IMG/VR virus record: IMGVR_UViG_3300037264_001975
Location: 1 to 23,684 of that record
Direction: 5' to 3' (one strand)
Origin: a virus
DNA length: 23,684 bases
Part shown: one piece after another, positions 3,266-22,161 of the stretch
Position numbering within the stretch: position 1 is the stretch's first letter
How the letters are laid out: the number at the start of each line of letters is the position of its first letter
Position numbers and translations under genes: made by a program
The notes under the pieces: generated by a model
The model's input: only the letters and a program-made list of their open reading frames with translations
Database searches by the model: none
What the model was told of the DNA's origin: nothing

Positions 3266-3940
3266 ATGCCAGACAAAAAAAGATTGGACAAACTATTGGA
3301 TAATTACTTGTTCGAGCAACCCGAGGAAGAGGAGCCAGAAGAAGAATCTCCAGTAACCAAGAAGAACCCTAATCTTTCTACAGCTGAAAAAGAAAAGGAT
3401 GTAAAAGAGAAAGACTTAGAAGATGTAGATAAAAAAGATCTAGGTGACAAAGAAGAAGATGACGAAGAAGAAGCTACAAAGGGCGACACTGTTGCATCTA
3501 TAAAATTAAACAACAATATAGAGGGCGGTGGCCAAATAAAACTTATAGACAAAAACAAAATATCAAGTTTGATTTCAATAGAGAATATTTTGACTATGTT
3601 TAAAATAGACGCAGAGAACCCGGCAAAGGGCTTCAAAGACAAGATGGAAATAACTATTAATTCTCCTTTGAGCGACTTCAAGGAACATGAATATGTTATA
3701 ACTCTGATGGACAAAATAGGTCAACTATCTATATCGAGACCCGACTTCAAAACTACAATAACAAAGAAATCAACAGGGATGGGCGGCAATTTAGGCCAAG
3801 CAGTCGAACAGGGAGTTGGGGAAGAACCTGAAGAGGCGGCTAAACCAGAAGTAGATTTAAGTTATTTGCCAGAATTAAATTCTGAGTTCTTAAAGGCTGT
3901 AAAGAATGAATTCTTCGATAAAATCCTCGAGCGAAGATAA
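3266..3940 (+). CDS. Hypothetical acidic protein, possible virion component
   Basis: A 224-residue protein with AGGAGGA upstream. Residues 1-20 form an amphipathic helix (KKRLDKLLDNYLFE) ending in LFE, which fits the gp21 cleavage consensus. Residues 20-75 are a Glu/Asp/Lys-rich, probably disordered run. Residues 78-165 look like a folded alpha/beta domain (IKLNNNIEGGG..., then ITINSPLSDF). A Gly-rich linker and a final helix follow. An acidic head plus a compact domain is common among phage head or scaffold-associated proteins, but no family is recognised. The last 35 bases overlap the sigma-factor gene in another frame. Confidence 0.65.
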   Translation: MPDKKRLDKLLDNYLFEQPEEEEPEEESPVTKKNPNLSTAEKEKDVKEKDLEDVDKKDLGDKEEDDEEEATKGDTVASIKLNNNIEGGGQIKLIDKNKISSLISIENILTMFKIDAENPAKGFKDKMEITINSPLSDFKEHEYVITLMDKIGQLSISRPDFKTTITKKSTGMGGNLGQAVEQGVGEEPEEAAKPEVDLSYLPELNSEFLKAVKNEFFDKILERR

Positions 3941-6157: not shown

Positions 6158-6475
6158 ATGAATACGAAGTTGACGGTTAAAAAGGTAGCAGACTCTGGAT
6201 ATATACCAGTTAAATATGGAGTAGTAGAAATTACAGTTGGTGCTAATGCTGCTGCCACCTATCTATTGCTAGAAACTATAGGAGTAGGTTGGGATACTGA
6301 AATTCACTATTTGGCATGGAAATCTACAAAGACATATGACTCTGGTAGTGGTACTACTACTCTAGTTGGTAGAAACGTGACCGGAATACAAGGAACCTTG
6401 GGAGCTTTAGAAATCGTAGCTCTAAGTGCAGTGATATCTTATACAGTACAAACTCCTAGTGTAGATAGAGCATAA
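6158..6475 (+). CDS. Small beta-rich protein, possible virion decoration
   Basis: A 105-residue protein with a strong GAGGAG site. It is rich in Thr, Val, Gly and Ala with alternating strand-like stretches (YGVVEITVGANAAATYLLL, then GTTTLVGRNVTGIQGTLG), and has no cysteines and few charges after residue 12. The composition is that of a compact beta fold, often seen in capsid decoration or tail-tip proteins. No homology is recognised, so the role is inference from composition and from lying in the structural region. Confidence 0.55.
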   Translation: MNTKLTVKKVADSGYIPVKYGVVEITVGANAAATYLLLETIGVGWDTEIHYLAWKSTKTYDSGSGTTTLVGRNVTGIQGTLGALEIVALSAVISYTVQTPSVDRA

Positions 6476-6478
6476 CAA

Positions 6479-6850
6479 ATGGACGGAAGCGAACTAGAAG
6501 TTACCAAAAAAGAAGTTACAGAATTAGACGTAGTTGTTCATAATATAGTTTCTTATTCTGAAGATGACAGAAGAAAAGCTGACGACTTATATGATTATTA
6601 TCAAGAGCTCATATCACAAGGTGACACTAAGGGTGATACGAGGATGGCTCTTGCAAAATCATTAGAATTAAAAGAGACCTCTGTTCAAAATTTGATAGAG
6701 ATAATGAAATTGAAGACTCGGTTGTTAGAAAAGAAGATCTCCTATGAGATAGCAAGAGAAATGAAAGATGTAGATAACGTTGGGCAAAGAAGATCTGGGT
6801 TTGACTCTAGCGTTATGATAACCGACATAGACAAATCTGAAAAGGAATAA
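6479..6850 (+). CDS. Helical protein, possible small terminase subunit
   Basis: A 123-residue, charged, all-helical protein three genes before the large terminase. Residues 28-50 (DDRRKADDLYDYYQELISQ) and 55-90 (TRMALAKSLELKETSVQNL plus a following coiled-coil helix) read as a helix-turn-helix and an oligomerisation helix. T4-like small terminase subunits (gp16) are short, centrally coiled-coil proteins encoded directly before gp17, so this is one candidate. The 80-residue coiled-coil gene at 7198 is the other. No diagnostic gp16 motif is certain. The ribosome site is weak. Confidence 0.5.
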   Translation: MDGSELEVTKKEVTELDVVVHNIVSYSEDDRRKADDLYDYYQELISQGDTKGDTRMALAKSLELKETSVQNLIEIMKLKTRLLEKKISYEIAREMKDVDNVGQRRSGFDSSVMITDIDKSEKE

Positions 6851-6854
6851 ATCA

Positions 6855-7211
6855 ATGGCAGAACCAATAGACAAAATTCAATACAATTTTATTGCTCCCG
6901 ATTTGCCACAAGAAGACTTAGACGAAGCATTGAGTATCTTAGAAAACCTAGACTCTAGGAAAGTTGACAAAGTAAACTGGGAAGAAAGAGCAAAAATGAA
7001 CGAAATATCTAAAAGAAGTGGCAAATATTTAATGACTGAGGGATCTACTAAGAAAGAATCAAAAGATATTCCCCAAGAAAAAGAAGTTGAACAAAAAGAA
7101 ATAAAAGAAGAAAAAGCTACAAAATATTCGCCGAATGAAAAAGAAAAAAATCTTTTGGGGTATCTTGGGGGAGTAATGAATTTACTGGAGGAAATAGATG
7201 ATAAGAAGTAA
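6855..7211 (+). CDS. Hypothetical charged protein
   Basis: A 118-residue protein with AAGGA upstream. Residues 1-60 are acidic and helical (QEDLDEALSILENL). Residues 62-100 are a Lys/Glu-rich, disordered linker with repeated KE. The last 25 residues form a short amphipathic helix (LLGYLGGVMNLLEEI). The arrangement of two helices joined by a charged linker suggests an adaptor that binds partners at both ends. It overlaps the next gene by 14 bases. Function unknown. Confidence 0.6.
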   Translation: MAEPIDKIQYNFIAPDLPQEDLDEALSILENLDSRKVDKVNWEERAKMNEISKRSGKYLMTEGSTKKESKDIPQEKEVEQKEIKEEKATKYSPNEKEKNLLGYLGGVMNLLEEIDDKK

Positions 7212-7443: not shown

Positions 7444-9342
7444 ATGGATGAAAAAGAAAAGAAAGAATTATTACTTAAGAACCTACAAGAAAAGATTGAT
7501 CAATACAATCTCCCAGAGAGTTGCGAGAAGATACCAACCTCTGGACAATATGTAGAGATAAAATACAACGACGGAACCAAGGGGCTAGTAGATCCCGTAA
7601 GTGAATTTTATCTTTGCAAGAAATACTTTATATATTTTGCAGATAGATACGGTTATATTTTAGACGTTAAAGAAAAAAGAGTATACGCATTTAAAGCTCA
7701 CAATTTCCAAAGTAAAATAATAATTCCTGCACTACTCAATAAAAGATTCCTGGTATTCAGAAAGTGTAGGCAGGTTGGTATGAGCGTTATATGCGGAATG
7801 TACGCCGTATGGAAGGCCAACTTCAATATAGCTCAAGACATATTAATAATATCTAGAACAAGAAAAGATGCACAGGATTTCAAAGAAAAAGCAATCATAA
7901 CCTATGAGAGATTGCCGAGCTTCTTGAAAACTAAACCAACTAGAGATGGTCAAAACATGACTACGTTGAAGTTGGTAAACAATTCAAGAATAGAAGTAAG
8001 ATCAGCGGCAGCAGACTCTGGACGTGGCGTTACAGCTTCGTTATTGATAATGGACGAAGTTGCTTTCATGCAATATGCTGATGATATTTGGGCATCTGCA
8101 TATCCATCTTTGTCTAACTCAAAAGGACAATGCTTTCTAATCTCTACATCTAATGGAGTTGGAAACTTCTACCACAAGATGTGGACAGATGCCGAAGAGG
8201 GAGAAAACGATTTCTATCCAGTATTTGTTCCGTGGTGGAAGTTCCCCGGCAGGGACAATCTTTGGTTAGAAAATATAGAAAACCACGATGTAGAGTTTTT
8301 ACAGAAATCTTTTAGCAAAGAAGAATTAGAAGAACTTAAAAAAGTTCTCAAAAACGATGGATTAGAAAATGACGAAAATGCTTATTGGGATAGATTAGTA
8401 GAAAAATTCATAACTAAGAAAGAAGAAGAGGATCTTAGCTATGATGGGCCCAACGAAAATAAGCCTTGGCTAAAACAACAAAAAGACAATCTGTCTATAA
8501 GAAGATTCAACCAAGAAATACTATCAAAATTCTTAGGATCGGGCAATACAGTATTAGCAGTTTCTACCTTAGAAAGAATAGAAGCTCAACTAAAAGAACC
8601 TCTCTTTACCGATGCTTTAAGTAAATCGGCAGCAATCAAGGGATTGAATGTATTTCAAAATCCAGTCGATGATATAACCTATACAATGACAGTAGACGTT
8701 AGCTCTGGTTCTGGCAGAGACTATAGTACATTCCAAATATTTAGAGATGATACTTTAGAGCAAGTAGCAGAGTACAAACAACAAATAGACACTAAACAAT
8801 TCGGTAACATTATAAAAATAGCTGCCAAGCACTTTAACTACGCTTACGTTATAATAGAAACTAACCAGGGAATGTCAGTATTCAATGAAGTATTCCTCGA
8901 CAAAGACGATCCATATCAAAATGTATTTTATGAGTTTAAGAATAAAGCTTTCAGAGGTTTGCACACTGGACCAGCTAATAAAAAGTTAATGCTTGATGAA
9001 TTTATGACAGATATGGAAAATGACCACATAAAAATTTATGGTAAAAGAACACTTGGTGAATTACAGGTATACATATGGCATAACGATAAGGCTCAAGCAT
9101 CAAGAGGATATAACGACGACTTGGTATTACCAATAATGTTTTTATCTTATTTAATAAAGTATGGCGATCAAAAGATGAAAGTATTGGGCTTTGCGACAGC
9201 AACTCAGACGGTAGGATTAACCGAGGGAGAAGCGGACGAAAGGGAAGAAGAGAGAGAATACATGCAAGAGCAATACGCAAGGGAAGAAGTGAAGACTTCG
9301 TTAGGCTTAGACTGGGAAGATTACGCAGACTGGCTAAAGTAA
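7444..9342 (+). CDS. 17: Terminase large subunit, T4 gp17-like packaging ATPase/nuclease
   Basis: A 632-residue DNA-packaging motor. The ATPase half has the nucleotide-binding loop at 106-114 (RKCRQVGMS), Walker B at 200-205 (LLIMDE, Asp204 and Glu205) and the coupling motif LISTSN at 232-237. The nuclease half has the three acidic sites of the RNase H-like fold: Asp418 in TVDVSSGSGRD, Glu472 in VIIETNQG and Asp558/Asp559 in YNDDL. It docks on the portal, pumps DNA into the prohead and cuts concatemers. The usual P-loop lysine (GK[TS]) is Met113 here; Lys107 sits upstream, as in lambda-type deviant Walker A motifs. Length is close to T4 gp17 (610). The C-terminal 40 residues are a charged helix. 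The ribosome site is weak, so translation may be coupled to the gene before. Confidence 0.95.
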   Translation: MDEKEKKELLLKNLQEKIDQYNLPESCEKIPTSGQYVEIKYNDGTKGLVDPVSEFYLCKKYFIYFADRYGYILDVKEKRVYAFKAHNFQSKIIIPALLNKRFLVFRKCRQVGMSVICGMYAVWKANFNIAQDILIISRTRKDAQDFKEKAIITYERLPSFLKTKPTRDGQNMTTLKLVNNSRIEVRSAAADSGRGVTASLLIMDEVAFMQYADDIWASAYPSLSNSKGQCFLISTSNGVGNFYHKMWTDAEEGENDFYPVFVPWWKFPGRDNLWLENIENHDVEFLQKSFSKEELEELKKVLKNDGLENDENAYWDRLVEKFITKKEEEDLSYDGPNENKPWLKQQKDNLSIRRFNQEILSKFLGSGNTVLAVSTLERIEAQLKEPLFTDALSKSAAIKGLNVFQNPVDDITYTMTVDVSSGSGRDYSTFQIFRDDTLEQVAEYKQQIDTKQFGNIIKIAAKHFNYAYVIIETNQGMSVFNEVFLDKDDPYQNVFYEFKNKAFRGLHTGPANKKLMLDEFMTDMENDHIKIYGKRTLGELQVYIWHNDKAQASRGYNDDLVLPIMFLSYLIKYGDQKMKVLGFATATQTVGLTEGEADEREEEREYMQEQYAREEVKTSLGLDWEDYADWLK

Positions 9343-9990: not shown

Positions 9991-10530
9991 ATGGCGATTA
10001 ATTCAAAAAAGAAGGGAAATAGGGGCGAACTAGAATTAGTTCACATATTAGAAGAAAAATTTGGAATCGGCAGATTTAAAAGGACACCAAGCTCTGGAGC
10101 TTGGACTGGTGGTAAAAATAGAGAGGGATGTGAAAACTTACCTTGGGAAGCCAAAATAACTTTAGTTTCCGATTTAATAACACCAGCAAATTTTAATTTT
10201 GTAATTGAGCACAAGTTCTACGCTGACATTTCTTTCTGGGAATTGCTTTCTGAAAAGTCGAATTGGAATGATTGGCTAAAGCAAGTGGAAGGTGATGCTG
10301 ACTTTGTAAAGAAAATACCTCTACTTATAGTAAAGTACAATAGGCACGATAGAATAGCCTTAGTACCTTATTATCACTTAGTAAAATATGGAATGAATAA
10401 GGAAAAGACAGATTTGGATTTATCAAATAAGATTCATGAATCCGCTAAAAATTTCGTTTGGAAAAGTTATTCAATTGTAAGCTTACAATCTCTTTTAGAT
10501 TTACCAGTCGATTTCTGGTTCGGGAGTTAA
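9991..10530 (+). CDS. PD-(D/E)XK nuclease, Holliday-junction-resolvase-like
   Basis: A 179-residue protein with AAAGGGG upstream. The N-terminus KKKGNRGELELVHILEEKFG has the conserved Gly-x-x-Gly-Glu helix (Glu13) of archaeal-Hjc/RecU-type resolvases. The catalytic core is Asp61 (SDLITP) with Glu73-x-Lys75 in FNFVIEHKFY, the classic D...ExK of PD-(D/E)XK nucleases, followed by the family-like FW and W residues. Such enzymes cut four-way DNA junctions. T4 uses an unrelated enzyme (endonuclease VII, gp49) to trim branches before packaging, and the place next to terminase and portal suits the same job. A restriction-like or mobility nuclease is the alternative. The stop lies 3 bases before the GIY-YIG gene. 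Confidence 0.7.
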   Translation: MAINSKKKGNRGELELVHILEEKFGIGRFKRTPSSGAWTGGKNREGCENLPWEAKITLVSDLITPANFNFVIEHKFYADISFWELLSEKSNWNDWLKQVEGDADFVKKIPLLIVKYNRHDRIALVPYYHLVKYGMNKEKTDLDLSNKIHESAKNFVWKSYSIVSLQSLLDLPVDFWFGS

Positions 10531-10533
10531 GCT

Positions 10534-11169
10534 ATGGGTATAGTATATACTCTTACGAACAAAATTAATAATAAAGTTTATGTTGGACAAACAGTACAAC
10601 CAATAAACATAAGAATGAGAAACCATAAAAATAGAAATACTCTAATAGGGAATGCCATAGCAAAATATGGAATAGATAATTTTATTATATCAGAAAATGA
10701 AGTACCAGAATATATGTTAGATAACTTAGAGTCAAACTTAATAAAACTATATAATTCTATAAGCCCAAATGGTTATAATTTGGAAAGTGGTGGACATAAA
10801 AATAAACACCTTTCTGAGGAAACAAAGAGGAAAATGTCAAATACCAAAATGGGTCACGTTGTATCTGAAGAGTCTAAAAAGAAAATGAGCTTATCAAAAT
10901 CTGGAGATAAAGCTCCTATGTTTGGGAAACACTGGTCAGACGAAATAAAAAAGAAGATGAGCGAATCTAGAGCTGGCGAAAAACATCCTCTTTATGGAAA
11001 ACATCACTCTGAAGAAACAAAAAAGAAAATGAGAGAATCTAGAAAGGGAAGATTTATTGGTAAAAATAACTATATGTTTGGTAGAAAAGCCTCTGAGGAA
11101 ACAAAAAAGAAAATGAGAGAATCTAGATTTGCTTATTTATCTAGATCAGGAAAGGGGGCTCCAAATTAA
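10534..11169 (+). CDS. GIY-YIG homing endonuclease with NUMOD3 repeats
   Basis: A 211-residue homing enzyme. The GIY-YIG nuclease domain fills residues 1-90: IVY at 3-5, YVG at 16-18, a likely catalytic Arg27, Glu66 and the closing GYNLESGG. Residues 90-200 are four or five NUMOD3 DNA-binding repeats of the form SEETKKKMRESR. Such free-standing enzymes cut a phage gene lacking them and spread by repair. GGGAG lies 8 bases before the ATG. Its 3' end overlaps the start of the portal frame, so it is wedged between the resolvase and portal genes. It is a paralogue of the gene at 21649 (shared NSISPNGYNL and KNKH). The NUMOD3 repeats are partly identical in DNA sequence. Confidence 0.9.
   Translation: MGIVYTLTNKINNKVYVGQTVQPINIRMRNHKNRNTLIGNAIAKYGIDNFIISENEVPEYMLDNLESNLIKLYNSISPNGYNLESGGHKNKHLSEETKRKMSNTKMGHVVSEESKKKMSLSKSGDKAPMFGKHWSDEIKKKMSESRAGEKHPLYGKHHSEETKKKMRESRKGRFIGKNNYMFGRKASEETKKKMRESRFAYLSRSGKGAPN
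11007..11127 (+). repeat. Direct repeat encoding NUMOD3 units
   Basis: Two 37-base copies (11007-11043 and 11091-11127) differ at one base and lie 84 bases (28 codons) apart. Each encodes SEETKKKMRESR. The near-identity at DNA level points to recent tandem duplication. The second copy ends two bases before the TTG at 11129 that begins the open portal frame. Confidence 0.85.
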
Positions 11170-14100
11170 TAGAATAACTGAGATAGAAAAAAAAGCCGAA
11201 ATAATTCAGGGCTATTTCAATAAGATCGGAATCACAAAGATAAAGGACCTTTCCAATTATGAAGGCGGCGGAGGGAAAGGCGATACTGGCTTAAATGCAT
11301 TCGGTTCATATAGAACTTCTGTTGAAAGCTTAACCTCTATAGATCAAAGTAGAATGATGAGGTACAGACAATACGAGCAGATGTGCTATGTACCAGAATT
11401 AAATGGTGGTCTAGAGCTTTATGCTGATGATGGTTCTTTATATAACGAGAACGATGAAGTAATAAAGGTAGAAGCAGACAATCAAGAAATAACTGAGTCT
11501 CTCACTAGTTTGTGGTTTAAGTCTCTTGATATGAATTCCGTTCTATGGCACATCGTTTATAATACTTGTAAATATGGCGATTCGTTCTACGAAGTAATCC
11601 CTGATAGCTTTAAGAATCCAAAGAAAGTAAAGTTTCTAAGATTTATTCCTCCTCAATTTGTGTCAAGAATAGAGAAGGATGGAAACTTATTAGAATTTGT
11701 TGTAAGAATACCAGAGGATGTAACTTCGGGCGGTTCTACAAGCTATACTACTACACAAGCACAAGAAGTTAAATTAAAGCCCTGGCAAATAGTACATTTC
11801 AAATTAGATGATAAAGAATTTGAACCTTATGGTAAATCAGTTCTTGAGCCTGGCAGATTAGCATTCAAGCAAATGAAATTGATTGAAGATGCAATGTTAA
11901 TTTATCGTATTTCTAGAGCACCAGAGAGAAGAGTATTCAGTATTCCAGTTGGTAACTTGCCATATAGAGAAGCAATGGCAAGAGTAGAAGACTTCAAACA
12001 GAAATATAGAAAGACTCCATGGATAGATCCAATAAGCGGGGAAATAGGCTACAAAGCTAATCCGTTGTGCATAACTCTTGATACTAAAATAGACTTGTTG
12101 GATGGAAGATCTTTAGAACTTTCAAAATTAATAGAAGAGTATAAGTCAGGTAAAGAGAACTGGGTATATTCTATTGATACTAAGAGAAATAACAAAGTGG
12201 TTCCCGGAAAGATTGAATGGGCGGGAGTAACTCGAAAGAATGCAGAATTAGTAGAAGTGACTATAGATAATGGAAAGTCAGTAAGATGTACTCCAGATCA
12301 CAAATTTATGCTTAGAGATGGGACATATAAACAAGCTAAGGATTTAGTTCCTGGCGAAAGCTTGATGCCTAAATATACGAAGCTATGCAAAATAGCCAAT
12401 AGTAAAGACTACATGAAGATCTATGATCCTTCGTCTGATAAATATAAGTATATACATAGTTTGGTGGCTGAGGAAATACAACCAGAACTATGGAATAATG
12501 ATTGGACTTTTAGAATAACGCACCACAAAGATTTTAATAAACTAAATAACAGTCCAAATAACTTAGTCATAATGGAAAGAAATGAGCACAATAGATATCA
12601 TTTAGATTTATTAAATAAACTATGGTCAGATGAAGAATATAGAACTAAGCAGATTGCTTCTAGAGTTGCTGCCTGGAAGGATGATGACGAAAGAAAGAAG
12701 ATGCAATCTAATCTTATGATAAAATATAATAAGAGCGATAAGCATAGACAAACTACTACAGACAGAAATAATAAATTTTGGTCTGATGCAGATAACAAAG
12801 AAAAGACTTCAGCTAAAATGCGAAAGCCAAAATCTACTACGGAAAAGATGCACATCAAGTTCGATGATAAGTTTTGGAACCATGTAGATATAACAATAAA
12901 ACAACTTAATACCCAAACTAAAGTTGTAGAATCTCTAAACTCCAACGAAAAGTTCATAGAACATTTTGTCACTATAACCCCAAGAAGTAACAGACAAATT
13001 CATAGACATTTATTAACTAAAGCTTTTAGATCAAAGGGGTTTGAAACATTTGAAGAGTATTCTGCTTTTGTAAAGAGCAATAAAAATCATAAAGTTGTTT
13101 CTGTAAAATTTTTGAAAATCAAAGAAGATACTGGATGTATAACAGTAACTGAATGGCATAACTTCAGTATATTAAATTCCATATATATAAAGAACAGTAT
13201 AAATGATGATTTCTTTTTGCCGAAGAGACCAGATGGGTCTGGGGTTACAATTGATTATCTACCTGGTGGCCAACAGCTGGGAGAAATTGACGACGTAAGA
13301 TACTTTAAAGAAAAGATCCTTAGAACAATGCGTATTCCTATAGCTTATCTAACTGGAGAACTACAAGGAGACGTGGCTAGAACTTCTTTGGCAGCAATGG
13401 ACGTAAGATTTGCTAAAACTATAGAAAGAGTTCAGAAGATGATCATAAAAGGCTTGGAAAAAATAGCTATAGTAGAGCTAGCTTTCAAGAGATTCACTAT
13501 TGAAGATCTGCACTCTTTCGTTATAAAACTAACTCCACCATCTAAAATTTATGAGATGCAAGAGTTAGAAACTACTACCCAAAAGCTTAACGTTATACAA
13601 ACTGCTATTGGTTTAGCTGATTCAGCTGGTAAATTATACTTACCAAGAGAGTGGCTATATAAGAATATAAGCAAATTTAATGAACAAGAAATATCTGCGA
13701 TAAAATTAATGCAACAGGCAGAGGCAGCTGAAGCTGCTGAAGCTCAAGCTGCCCAGGGTGCAGGTGGAGGACTTGAAAGTATGGGAGCACCTGCTGGCGG
13801 TGGCGGAGGAGGGATGGGAGGAACAGGAGGAATGGAAATGGGAGCTGAAGCGGGTGGAGTAGCAGGTGGAGGAGAAATGGGAATGGCACCTCCAGAAGCT
13901 GGAGCAATGCCACCTGAAACTACCCCAGCTCCAGGCGGAGGAGAAGCAGAATTAGCCTTAGCAAGTAAAATATTAAACATAGCAGGAAAAGACTTCCTAT
14001 TAGAAAACGAAAACGACATTAGAGAAATTATAAAATTTGTTAAGAATTATAAAGAAACTGATAAGATAACTAAAGATAAGCCGATTATAGTGCCTAAGAA

Positions 14101-14203
14101 AAAAATGTACGAAAACAACTTCCATTATTTATTTGTTATAGGCGAGCTAAAGGGATTAATTAGTCGCAATACTAAAAACAAACAAGAAATGCTTGAAGAC
14201 TAG
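11129..14203 (+). CDS. 20: Portal vertex protein, T4 gp20-like, interrupted by an intein
   Basis: A 1024-residue precursor. Removing the intein (residues 314-689) leaves a 648-residue portal, longer than T4 gp20 (524). T4-like signatures are the FGSY motif near residue 58, LIEDAMLIYRISRAPERRVF before the intein, and LPGGQQLGEIDDVRYF and LRTMRIPIAYL after it. The portal forms the dodecameric ring through which DNA enters the head and docks the terminase. After the conserved domain comes a Gly/Ala/Met/Pro-rich linker (about residues 860-940) and a separate helical C-terminal domain. No ATG or GTG lies before residue 76, although conserved sequence begins earlier. The only ordinary start is TTG at 11129, inside the GIY-YIG gene. 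ATT at 11165 has AGGAAAGGGGG 6 bases upstream and is the alternative. Confidence 0.93.
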   Translation: MLIYLDQERGLQINRITEIEKKAEIIQGYFNKIGITKIKDLSNYEGGGGKGDTGLNAFGSYRTSVESLTSIDQSRMMRYRQYEQMCYVPELNGGLELYADDGSLYNENDEVIKVEADNQEITESLTSLWFKSLDMNSVLWHIVYNTCKYGDSFYEVIPDSFKNPKKVKFLRFIPPQFVSRIEKDGNLLEFVVRIPEDVTSGGSTSYTTTQAQEVKLKPWQIVHFKLDDKEFEPYGKSVLEPGRLAFKQMKLIEDAMLIYRISRAPERRVFSIPVGNLPYREAMARVEDFKQKYRKTPWIDPISGEIGYKANPLCITLDTKIDLLDGRSLELSKLIEEYKSGKENWVYSIDTKRNNKVVPGKIEWAGVTRKNAELVEVTIDNGKSVRCTPDHKFMLRDGTYKQAKDLVPGESLMPKYTKLCKIANSKDYMKIYDPSSDKYKYIHSLVAEEIQPELWNNDWTFRITHHKDFNKLNNSPNNLVIMERNEHNRYHLDLLNKLWSDEEYRTKQIASRVAAWKDDDERKKMQSNLMIKYNKSDKHRQTTTDRNNKFWSDADNKEKTSAKMRKPKSTTEKMHIKFDDKFWNHVDITIKQLNTQTKVVESLNSNEKFIEHFVTITPRSNRQIHRHLLTKAFRSKGFETFEEYSAFVKSNKNHKVVSVKFLKIKEDTGCITVTEWHNFSILNSIYIKNSINDDFFLPKRPDGSGVTIDYLPGGQQLGEIDDVRYFKEKILRTMRIPIAYLTGELQGDVARTSLAAMDVRFAKTIERVQKMIIKGLEKIAIVELAFKRFTIEDLHSFVIKLTPPSKIYEMQELETTTQKLNVIQTAIGLADSAGKLYLPREWLYKNISKFNEQEISAIKLMQQAEAAEAAEAQAAQGAGGGLESMGAPAGGGGGGMGGTGGMEMGAEAGGVAGGGEMGMAPPEAGAMPPETTPAPGGGEAELALASKILNIAGKDFLLENENDIREIIKFVKNYKETDKITKDKPIIVPKKKMYENNFHYLFVIGELKGLISRNTKNKQEMLED
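12068..13195 (+). mobile_element. In-frame intein with HNH endonuclease, in the portal gene
   Basis: A 376-residue self-splicing element (portal codons 314-689). It begins with Cys1 (CITLDTKIDLLDG, block A) and has block B with TPDH (Thr75, His78). It ends with a block F-like GCITVTEWHNFSI and block G SIYIKN, then Ser as the first residue of the C-extein. Removal joins NPL to SINDDFFLP, restoring the gp20 sequence. The middle carries an HNH endonuclease core (HHKDFNKLNNSPNNL with a following EHNRYH) and two or three repeats around WSDEEYR and WSDADNKEK that probably bind DNA. The penultimate residue is Lys, where most inteins have His. Some inteins splice without that His, so activity is likely but not certain. 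Confidence 0.9.
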
Positions 14204-16508: not shown

Positions 16509-16521
16509 GAGGTTGGTTCGC

Positions 16522-17493
16522 ATGGCAAATAATATATTGGCTGAGATAGAACTCAACGAAAAGCAAATCAAAGCTTTTAACGAAGAACTAAATAAGTGGA
16601 AGGAAAAGAAAGAGGAAGAGATAAAAGAGAATCTAGCCTCTGAGTTGAAGACCGAGTTCGAAGTTAAAGTTAGAGAGCTCGCTGAGGAAAAGGCTAATTT
16701 CGAAAAGAAGCAGACTGATTTGGTCGAAGAGATCAAAAACAAAATGCAGAAAGTCATGGTAAAAAGATTTACTTCTGCTCTCAAGGACATGTATGATGAA
16801 TTGAAAGTGGAAGCAAGAAAAGACGTCATGAACGATCCTCGAATTTTAGCTCTCGAAGAGATCAAGAGCGTTGTCTATCCTCTAATGGATGAGACTGTTA
16901 CTAAGGGTTATGTTGACGAACTTGCAACAGCTCTTAGAGTAGTTGAGACAAAAGAAGACGAGAACGACAGGCTAAAGGCTAAGCTAAAGTTGAAGGAGAT
17001 CACATCCTCATTGGCTCCAGTCGTAGCAGAAGCTGTAGAAGCTTTCATCGGCAACGCTTCCACTGAGGAAGAGGTTGTTGAGAAGTACTCTAAGTTAAAG
17101 AATTTGGCTAATGAAGCCTCCGAAGACGACGAAGAGGAAGAGGAAGAAGAGCCAGAAGAAGACGAAGAGGAAGAGGATGATGGAAAGAAGAAGAGCAAGA
17201 AGGCAAAGAAGGGCAAGAAAGACGACGAAGAGGAAGAGCCCGAGGAAGAAGTAGATGAAGCTAAGAAAGATGACGAGGACGAAGAGTCCGAAGAAGATGA
17301 TGAAGATGAAGAGTCCGAAGAGGACGATGAAGACGAAGAAGACGACAAAGACGACGAAGATGAAGACAAAGCAGACGAAGGACTAGAAATTAGACCTTCT
17401 GTCCATTTTGAGAAGAAAGAAGTAGAGGATAGTGAAGATCACTTAGCAACTCTTAATGAGATGCTTGATCTCGCGGGAGTCCCTACAAAGTAA
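16522..17493 (+). CDS. 22: Prohead scaffold protein, T4 gp22-like
   Basis: A 323-residue protein between protease and capsid genes, exactly the gp22 position. The ATG at 16522 is preferred because AGGAGG ends 9 bases before it; the TTG at 16513 touches that site. Residues 1-75 are a long coiled coil (EELNKWKEKKEEEIKENL) and residues 75-195 a helical core. Residues 198-285 are an extreme Asp/Glu run broken by a Lys patch and containing a 9-residue tandem repeat. A conserved-looking C-terminal helix ends LNEMLDLAGVPTK. Scaffold proteins fill the prohead and are destroyed by gp21; many LxE sites are present. The acidic run is much longer than I would expect in T4 gp22. Confidence 0.85.
   Translation: MANNILAEIELNEKQIKAFNEELNKWKEKKEEEIKENLASELKTEFEVKVRELAEEKANFEKKQTDLVEEIKNKMQKVMVKRFTSALKDMYDELKVEARKDVMNDPRILALEEIKSVVYPLMDETVTKGYVDELATALRVVETKEDENDRLKAKLKLKEITSSLAPVVAEAVEAFIGNASTEEEVVEKYSKLKNLANEASEDDEEEEEEEPEEDEEEEDDGKKKSKKAKKGKKDDEEEEPEEEVDEAKKDDEDEESEEDDEDEESEEDDEDEEDDKDDEDEDKADEGLEIRPSVHFEKKEVEDSEDHLATLNEMLDLAGVPTK
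17269..17340 (+). repeat. 27-base tandem repeat in the scaffold gene
   Basis: Two full units and one partial unit encode DDEDEESEE, DDEDEESEE and DDEDEE. The DNA copies differ mainly at third positions, so the protein repeat appears to be conserved under selection or to be an older duplication. Confidence 0.8.
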
Positions 17494-21222: not shown

Positions 21223-21641
21223 TGGAAATACCAATTTTATCTGACAAGGCAAAACTTGATAAGTGGAACGACATCTGCATATCCCAGGATTGGGCTCAAC
21301 AGGGAGAATTAGAAAAGTGGTTGATGGCTCACGGTATTTTCTTCACTGGAGCTGGCAGCTGTTTGAACACTTCTATAGTAGTGATAAAAATGTCCAGCTC
21401 GCAACAGGCAATAGACAACATAAAGAATAGCTCTTCAGAAGAAATGGCTACAAACATATTGCTTGCCCTAACGGGAATCATGATCTTTTCAAGTTCAGAG
21501 TGCGAAACCGATTTCTGGAAAGCTGCTATTGAAAGATTGAATGTAGAGGCGGATATGTTTATGCCTCCAGAAATAATGCCCAAACCTGTAAGAGAATCGC
21601 TGAAGTATCCTGCCGATACCAACAATGGAGCCATCTCGTAG
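21219..21641 (+). CDS. Hypothetical protein
   Basis: A 140-residue protein. The start ATG at 21219 is chosen because it overlaps the previous stop (ATGA) and has AGGCGG 9 bases upstream; the frame also extends back to a TTG at 21168 inside that gene. The protein is helical, with a Trp-rich N-terminal third (KWNDICISQDWAQQGELEKW), a Gly/Ser-containing turn, a Ser-rich helix and a hydrophobic helix (NILLALTGIMIF) that is too short and mixed for a confident membrane segment. No motif recognised. The second homing gene follows at once, so this may be a homing target border. Confidence 0.6.
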   Translation: MMEIPILSDKAKLDKWNDICISQDWAQQGELEKWLMAHGIFFTGAGSCLNTSIVVIKMSSSQQAIDNIKNSSSEEMATNILLALTGIMIFSSSECETDFWKAAIERLNVEADMFMPPEIMPKPVRESLKYPADTNNGAIS

Positions 21642-21648
21642 AAAGCCT

Positions 21649-22161
21649 ATGGGTGCATTATATATTTTACAAAATAAATTAAATAAAAAATGTTATGTTG
21701 GGCAAACTACTGTGTCAGCAGAACATCGGGTTACAAAACATCTACGAAAAAATAGTATAATTGGGAAAGCCCTAAGAAAATATGGTGTAGAAAACTTTAA
21801 TCAATATATCTTCGAGGGAATTCAAGAAGATACTCTAGATTTTGTAGAGAGCGAAATGATTTCACGTTTAAATAGCATAAGCCCTAACGGATATAATCTT
21901 GATAGCGGCGGAAATAAAAACAAACATATAACAGAAGACACAAAGAGAAAAATGTCATTATCTAAAAAAGGATATAAAAATCCTATGTTTAAAAAGGGAT
22001 ATAAACAAGTTGGAGAGAAAAATCCAATGTTTAATAAGGGATATTTAGTTTCTGGCGAAAAACATGCTGATGTAAACGGCAGCAAAAACCCAAGGTGGAA
22101 AGGTGGAATCGGAAAGAAATACAGAGCAAAACAAAAGCTTCGACATAGAGATATAGTATAA
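21649..22161 (+). CDS. GIY-YIG homing endonuclease, second copy
   Basis: A 170-residue free-standing homing enzyme. The start at 21649 aligns with the first GIY-YIG protein (both MG...Y); an upstream in-frame ATG at 21625 lies inside the previous gene. ALY at 3-5 and YVG at 16-18 form the GIY-YIG core, with likely catalytic Arg27 and Glu67, then NSISPNGYNLDSGG. The C-terminal half has one NUMOD3 unit (TEDTKRKMS) and three short repeats around KNPMFKKGY, which differ from the first enzyme's repeats. The ending is strongly basic. The two enzymes share an ancestor but probably recognise different sites. Confidence 0.88.
   Translation: MGALYILQNKLNKKCYVGQTTVSAEHRVTKHLRKNSIIGKALRKYGVENFNQYIFEGIQEDTLDFVESEMISRLNSISPNGYNLDSGGNKNKHITEDTKRKMSLSKKGYKNPMFKKGYKQVGEKNPMFNKGYLVSGEKHADVNGSKNPRWKGGIGKKYRAKQKLRHRDIV

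Follow-up and report, generated by a model that had tools for sequence, protein, structure and literature searches.

A GIY-YIG homing gene at the start of a T4-like portal gene, and a probable AUU start codon served by a Shine-Dalgarno site within the homing gene

How does a phage translate a portal gene whose reading frame offers no conventional start codon at the point where its similarity to other portals begins? We addressed this question in a 23.7-kb viral contig (the window, by which we mean the whole stretch of DNA analysed) that carries a T4-like head gene cluster, with a homing gene directly upstream of the portal gene. We consider it probable, at roughly 0.83, that the portal is translated from an AUU codon at 11165 by way of a Shine-Dalgarno (SD) site embedded in the homing gene. 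The features on which the argument turns are given below, where L002 is a second carrier of the homing gene and L003 is a relative without it.

7444-9342: terminase gene
9991-10530, plus strand: PDDEXK / Holliday-junction-resolvase-like gene (PF24608, 1.7e-25; phrog_244), with its C-terminus ...DFWFGS and its stop codon at 10528-10530
10518-10560, plus strand: predicted hairpin burying the SD and ATG of the homing gene (fold -13.0 kcal/mol)
10522-10526, plus strand: GGGAG ribosome-binding site, now that of the homing gene; the portal site of relatives is at the equivalent place
10522-11217, plus strand: tract common to the window and L002 by sliding identity, comprising the homing gene and the first 17 portal codons
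10534-11169, plus strand: gene for a 211-aa GIY-YIG homing endonuclease with NUMOD3 repeats (PF01541, 7.6e-8; PF07460, 6.8e-33; phrog_314, 8.5e-42)
11148-11158, plus strand: AGGAAAGGGGG, putative SD site of the portal within the last codons of the homing gene, 6 nt from the ATT and identical in L002
11165-11167, plus strand: ATT, probable portal start codon, aligned with the L003 ATG at 3693 and conserved in L002
11165-14203, plus strand: portal gene (T4 gp20 family; PF07230, 4.6e-73), bearing an intein
12068-13195, plus strand: intein of 376 aa inside the portal (PF14890, 1.2e-13), with an empty site in L002 and L003
Same head cluster: prohead protease and major capsid protein genes

The portal reading frame and its ribosome-binding site

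An earlier note on this DNA had claimed that the portal lacks an ATG or GTG start, and its coordinates and distances are right. The portal frame, +1 relative to the homing gene, has an in-frame stop at 11114 and is open from 11117 to 14203, with its first ATG at 11354 (residue 76 counting from the TTG at 11129), no earlier GTG, and only TTG 11129, ATT 11165 and ATA 11174 as start-like codons upstream. We likewise confirmed that the GIY-YIG gene sits exactly between the resolvase stop and the portal with GGGAG and an ATG, and that AGGAAAGGGGG lies 6 bases ahead of the ATT, the junction running from this motif through CTCCAA to ATT. The TAA stop of the homing gene (11167-11169) shares its first base with the ATT, giving ATTAA.

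Paired with the anti-SD ACCUCCUUA, the site ahead of the ATT (AAAGGGGG) reaches -10.7 kcal/mol, the strongest value among the 16 portals compared, the anti-SD being assumed to be the standard sequence, from which that of the host may differ. Portals with ATG range from -3.5 to -8.7 kcal/mol and those with GTG (L013/L016/L018) lie at about -9.1 kcal/mol; stronger SDs thus accompany weaker start codons across the three kinds of start compared. On the plus strand, an SD this strong and well placed precedes 2 of 512 ATT trinucleotides.

The G-run in this site had also been read as a possible point of frameshifting. A programmed +1 slip at AAG-GGG-GCT would yield a fusion of homing endonuclease and portal, and it draws some support from the portal frame, which lies in the +1 register and runs through the junction without a stop from 11117 onward, and from the run of five G, which is conserved in L002. 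We nevertheless judge it unlikely. Slip pairing is possible with GGG followed by GCT, but the A-site codon is neither a stop nor one that is evidently slow, and we saw no additional stimulator; each portal subunit would gain about 208 residues; and the G-run is already accounted for as an SD, at an ideal distance from the codon aligned with the ancestral ATG. In addition, the start of the homing gene is predicted to lie within a hairpin, and an essential protein would be poorly supplied from it. The frameshift option found no positive support.

In predicted folds, which are only marginally better than those of shuffled sequences, the portal SD and ATT lie in an open loop (0.81 unpaired, versus 0.48-0.69 for four other folded portal sites) and the SD and ATG of the homing gene are paired in a hairpin in both phages (0.21-0.26 unpaired). 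The hairpin, which folds at -9.5 kcal/mol in L002, has a statistically weak z of about -1.6. As modelled, its presence at the start of the homing gene argues that much of portal initiation would be direct. Near the junction there was no exact match to the late-promoter-like TATAAATA, and sigma-70-like sites were not above chance level.

The ancestral start and its fate in two carriers

A search of viral contigs with the portal N-terminus as query returned 17 relatives at 64-96% identity, with L100 and L110 coming from a further, alignment-based search; a search of genome contigs with the portal alignment found no relative. Among relatives lacking the homing gene, L003 is the closest, with a portal 92% identical to that of the window. 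Its resolvase stop overlaps the portal ATG directly (TAATG), constituting the empty site, and its junction reads ...TTTAATGGTGGGGTAGCATA-ATG-GAC-AGA-CTA-AGA-GAG, versus ...CTCCAA-ATT-AAT-AGA-ATA-ACT-GAG in the window. The L003 ATG falls codon for codon on the ATT at 11165, which is exactly where homology to the relatives begins. Every relative free of the homing gene (12/12: L003-L012, L100, L110) uses a portal ATG at the same place or at most 4 alignment columns off, including L011, which has an HNH gene just upstream of the portal and an ATG start nonetheless. Among 31 more distant homologues, the first candidate start is ATG except in L131 (GTG) and L134 (TTG, then ATG). The comparison with homing-gene-free relatives that had been proposed earlier thus gives, as judged from sequence, an ancestral portal start that is an ATG at the position of the ATT, as aligned in L003. 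Shared use of TTG by such relatives had been named as evidence against a captured start; none of them uses it, and that reading is not refuted.

In L013 (3094-3429) and L011 (3637-3981), a small HNH protein is encoded in place of the PDDEXK resolvase of the window, which suggests that one nuclease has been replaced by another at this position of the operon.

The homing gene and ATT arrangement occurs in two contigs only, the window and L002, a contig of another metagenome record and the sole match to the exact junction pattern across viral contigs. L002 has the same homing gene, followed by AGGAAAGGGGG-CTCCAA-ATT, and no intein. The onset of homology exactly at the ATT, together with the same layout in L002, indicates that the arrangement is not due to chance. 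A single assembly error repeated in both contigs is ruled out by portal synonymous divergence (88.5 of 146 sites, about 0.61 per site).

L002 also discriminates among the candidate start codons, as it has TGG where the window has TTG 11129 and contains no ATG, GTG or TTG before codon 62. Of the codons listed as possible starts in the earlier note, ATT is therefore favored, being aligned with the L003 ATG and kept in L002, and TTG is not. TTG 11129 is the sole conventional start-like codon upstream in the window phage, yet a portal start there is very unlikely given the TGG in L002, an SD energy of only -2.9 kcal/mol and the addition of 12 residues without counterpart in relatives.

Portal codons 2-62 differ between the window and L002 by 17 synonymous changes (39 sites) and 0 nonsynonymous changes (147 sites), and the stretch must therefore be translated in the portal frame. 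Purifying selection of this kind rules out 11354 as the start; since the first substitution lies at 11218, the start can be no further downstream than that. A portal beginning at the internal ATG 11354/11357 and losing its first 63 residues is thus highly improbable; the Pfam portal domain does begin about there, and alignment with T4 portal structures starts further in still, but the portal N-terminus is conserved in all relatives as well as being under strong selection.

Insertion, spread and a parallel lineage

The inserted gene encodes a GIY-YIG catalytic domain and a DNA-binding tail (PF01541 and PF07460, above cut-offs), lies outside any intron or intein and is absent from the empty site of L003; by sequence it is a typical free-standing GIY-YIG (Seg-type) homing gene, with predicted cleavage and homing. 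The distance from the FWF codons of the resolvase to the homing-gene ATG is 21 nt, versus 22-28 nt from FWF to the portal ATG in L003, L004, L005, L008, L010, L012 and L100, indicating that the homing gene occupies the old translation start of the portal. The earlier proposal that the element inserted at the portal start, captured its ribosome site and left a rare start that relies on AGGAAAGGGGG agrees with all the comparative tests. The homing gene could use the former ATG of the portal, since both begin ATGG. Alternatively, the element may have brought its own ATG, since the CTATGGGT context recurs at the start of the window's second GIY-YIG gene. That second gene (21625-22161, likely start 21649) is 44% identical to the first, and the gene downstream of it (22177) retains an ATG.

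We give almost no credence to the homing gene being an intron or a bypassed segment, such that the mature message would join ATG 10534 to AAT 11168. The joined product, M-N-R-I-T-E-I, does resemble the ancestral N-terminus, but an Rfam scan of the window for group I or any other intron family gave no match at E up to 1, and the ORF fills the entire insert and leaves no space for a catalytic core. As for bypassing, we know of no precedent for a translational bypass of 630 nt.

Identity between the window and L002 is mosaic: 82% at the end of the resolvase, 96-98% in the homing gene and 87% in the portal, with 100% identity over 11144-11217, which covers the ATT. Within the homing gene there are 13 synonymous differences in 121 sites (about 0.11 per site) and 7 nonsynonymous differences in 512 sites. 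The mosaic, together with synonymous differences of 0.11 versus 0.61 per site in homing gene and portal, suggests that the element, the ATT start and 17 portal codons were recently exchanged between diverged phages. Such an exchange is what homing with co-conversion would be expected to produce, and co-conversion tracts accompanying homing have been described (PMC2988022). Homing is thus the presumed mode of spread, with general recombination an alternative cause of the shared tract that must be allowed for.

A different GIY-YIG gene, 31% identical to that of the window, occupies the same place upstream of the portal in L013/L014, L016 and L018. As in the window, the portal SD (AAGGAGAT) is supplied by the final codons of the homing gene (AAG GAG) and the portal start is not ATG; unlike in the window, that start is GTG, an ordinary start codon, and the preceding gene encodes an HNH protein rather than a resolvase. 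An upstream homing gene is accompanied by a non-ATG start at 5 distinct loci, versus 0/12 relatives without one (Fisher 1.6e-4, relatedness ignored), or in 2/2 versus 0/12 when counted by lineage (Fisher 0.011). The association in these sequences is suggestive only, since GTG is an ordinary start. A survey of approximately 75 other GIY-YIG loci for neighbors lacking ATG, GTG or TTG gave no convincing example and no second AUU-like case; where a gene follows closely, its start codon lies close to the stop and is ATG or, in some cases, GTG or TTG. One candidate, L025, had been flagged through a wrong frame and was rejected, its ATG lying immediately at the stop.

In L018 a further GIY-YIG gene (6406-6978) begins at the stop codon of the portal, which thus has a homing gene on either side. 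The window intein, which has HNH-like similarity, follows ...KANPL, and L005 and L011 appear to carry an insertion at the same point. In the portals of L013 (4001-6376) and L018 (4001-6406) the intein lies elsewhere, after ...YRQYEQM. Inteins thus occupy at least two sites in the portal gene, in addition to the homing genes upstream of it. Elsewhere in the window, an ORF with a very long Glu/Asp-rich stretch (16513-17493, listed with a TTG start and with an ATG just downstream) adjoins the prohead protease gene, and its product is perhaps a scaffold or core protein.

A proposed mechanism and known systems

The position of the ancestral ATG, the conservation of the ATT and its SD, the selection acting before the first ATG and the shared tract are read from sequence; AUU initiation itself, its efficiency, any coupling and homing as the mode of spread are inferred. 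We propose that a free-standing GIY-YIG homing gene inserted at the portal translation start, so that its own start would have taken the place behind the resolvase where the portal SD and ATG stood, and its 3' end would have replaced the first two portal codons (ATG GAC-like to ATT AAT). AUU is normally a poor start codon, as in infC and pcnB. The portal, however, is needed in few copies (12 per head in T4), so that a weak start may be tolerated. Initiation at AUU 11165 would be enabled by the unusually strong AGGAAAGGGGG with its 6-nt spacer. In S. aureus reporters, in line with AUU being a poor start codon, AUU and AUA starts with an extended SD give approximately 10% of AUG (PMC13009471). 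Ribosomes terminating at the overlapping UAA possibly assist: an SD promotes re-initiation where a stop and a start codon overlap (PMC2268962), and AUUAA may thereby contribute some coupled initiation. Upon homing into a new phage, the element would carry its flanking tract along, and recipients would acquire the AUU start.

If this is correct, a selfish gene can change how translation of an essential structural gene starts and still be maintained, and a mechanism of retention is predicted whereby deletion of the element removes the ribosome site of the portal. More tentatively, it is possible, although we are somewhat short of convinced, that the mobile unit of a homing gene can include the start site of an essential neighbor, with the SD in the final codons of the endonuclease and the ATG replaced, so that recipients are given a weak start and the element cannot be cleanly lost, and that this has arisen at least twice at the portal, in the AUU and GTG lineages. 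AUU starts are seldom recognized, and gene callers confined to ATG, GTG and TTG would miss 63 N-terminal residues of this portal or choose the false TTG. In the mainly open-access literature searched, we found no earlier report that combines a homing endonuclease with an AUU/ATT start or an embedded SD.

Naturally AUU-started genes include infC and pcnB of E. coli. Another is cvfC1 of S. aureus (PMC13009471). Like the window portal, these genes have an AUU that follows a strong SD at a suitable spacing and is conserved between genomes; they are, however, host regulatory or cellular genes, whereas the portal is a phage structural gene that has no known regulatory role and whose ATG was apparently changed through a mobile element.

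The free-standing Seg/Mob homing endonucleases of T4-like phages (PMC2988022) similarly combine GIY-YIG with NUMOD3, lie between essential genes and have an empty site in relatives. Several T4 homing genes bury their own ribosome-binding site in a hairpin, and the translational cases described there concern the start of the endonuclease itself, not that of a downstream gene (PMC2988022). In T4, promoters of gene 32 are embedded in the segG ORF, so that this ORF holds expression signals of an essential neighbor, and such embedded promoters favor retention of the homing genes (PMC2988022). Here, in contrast, the embedded signal would be the ribosome-binding site of a neighbor that has lost its ATG, and the translation start would play the retention role that promoters play in the homing genes of T4.
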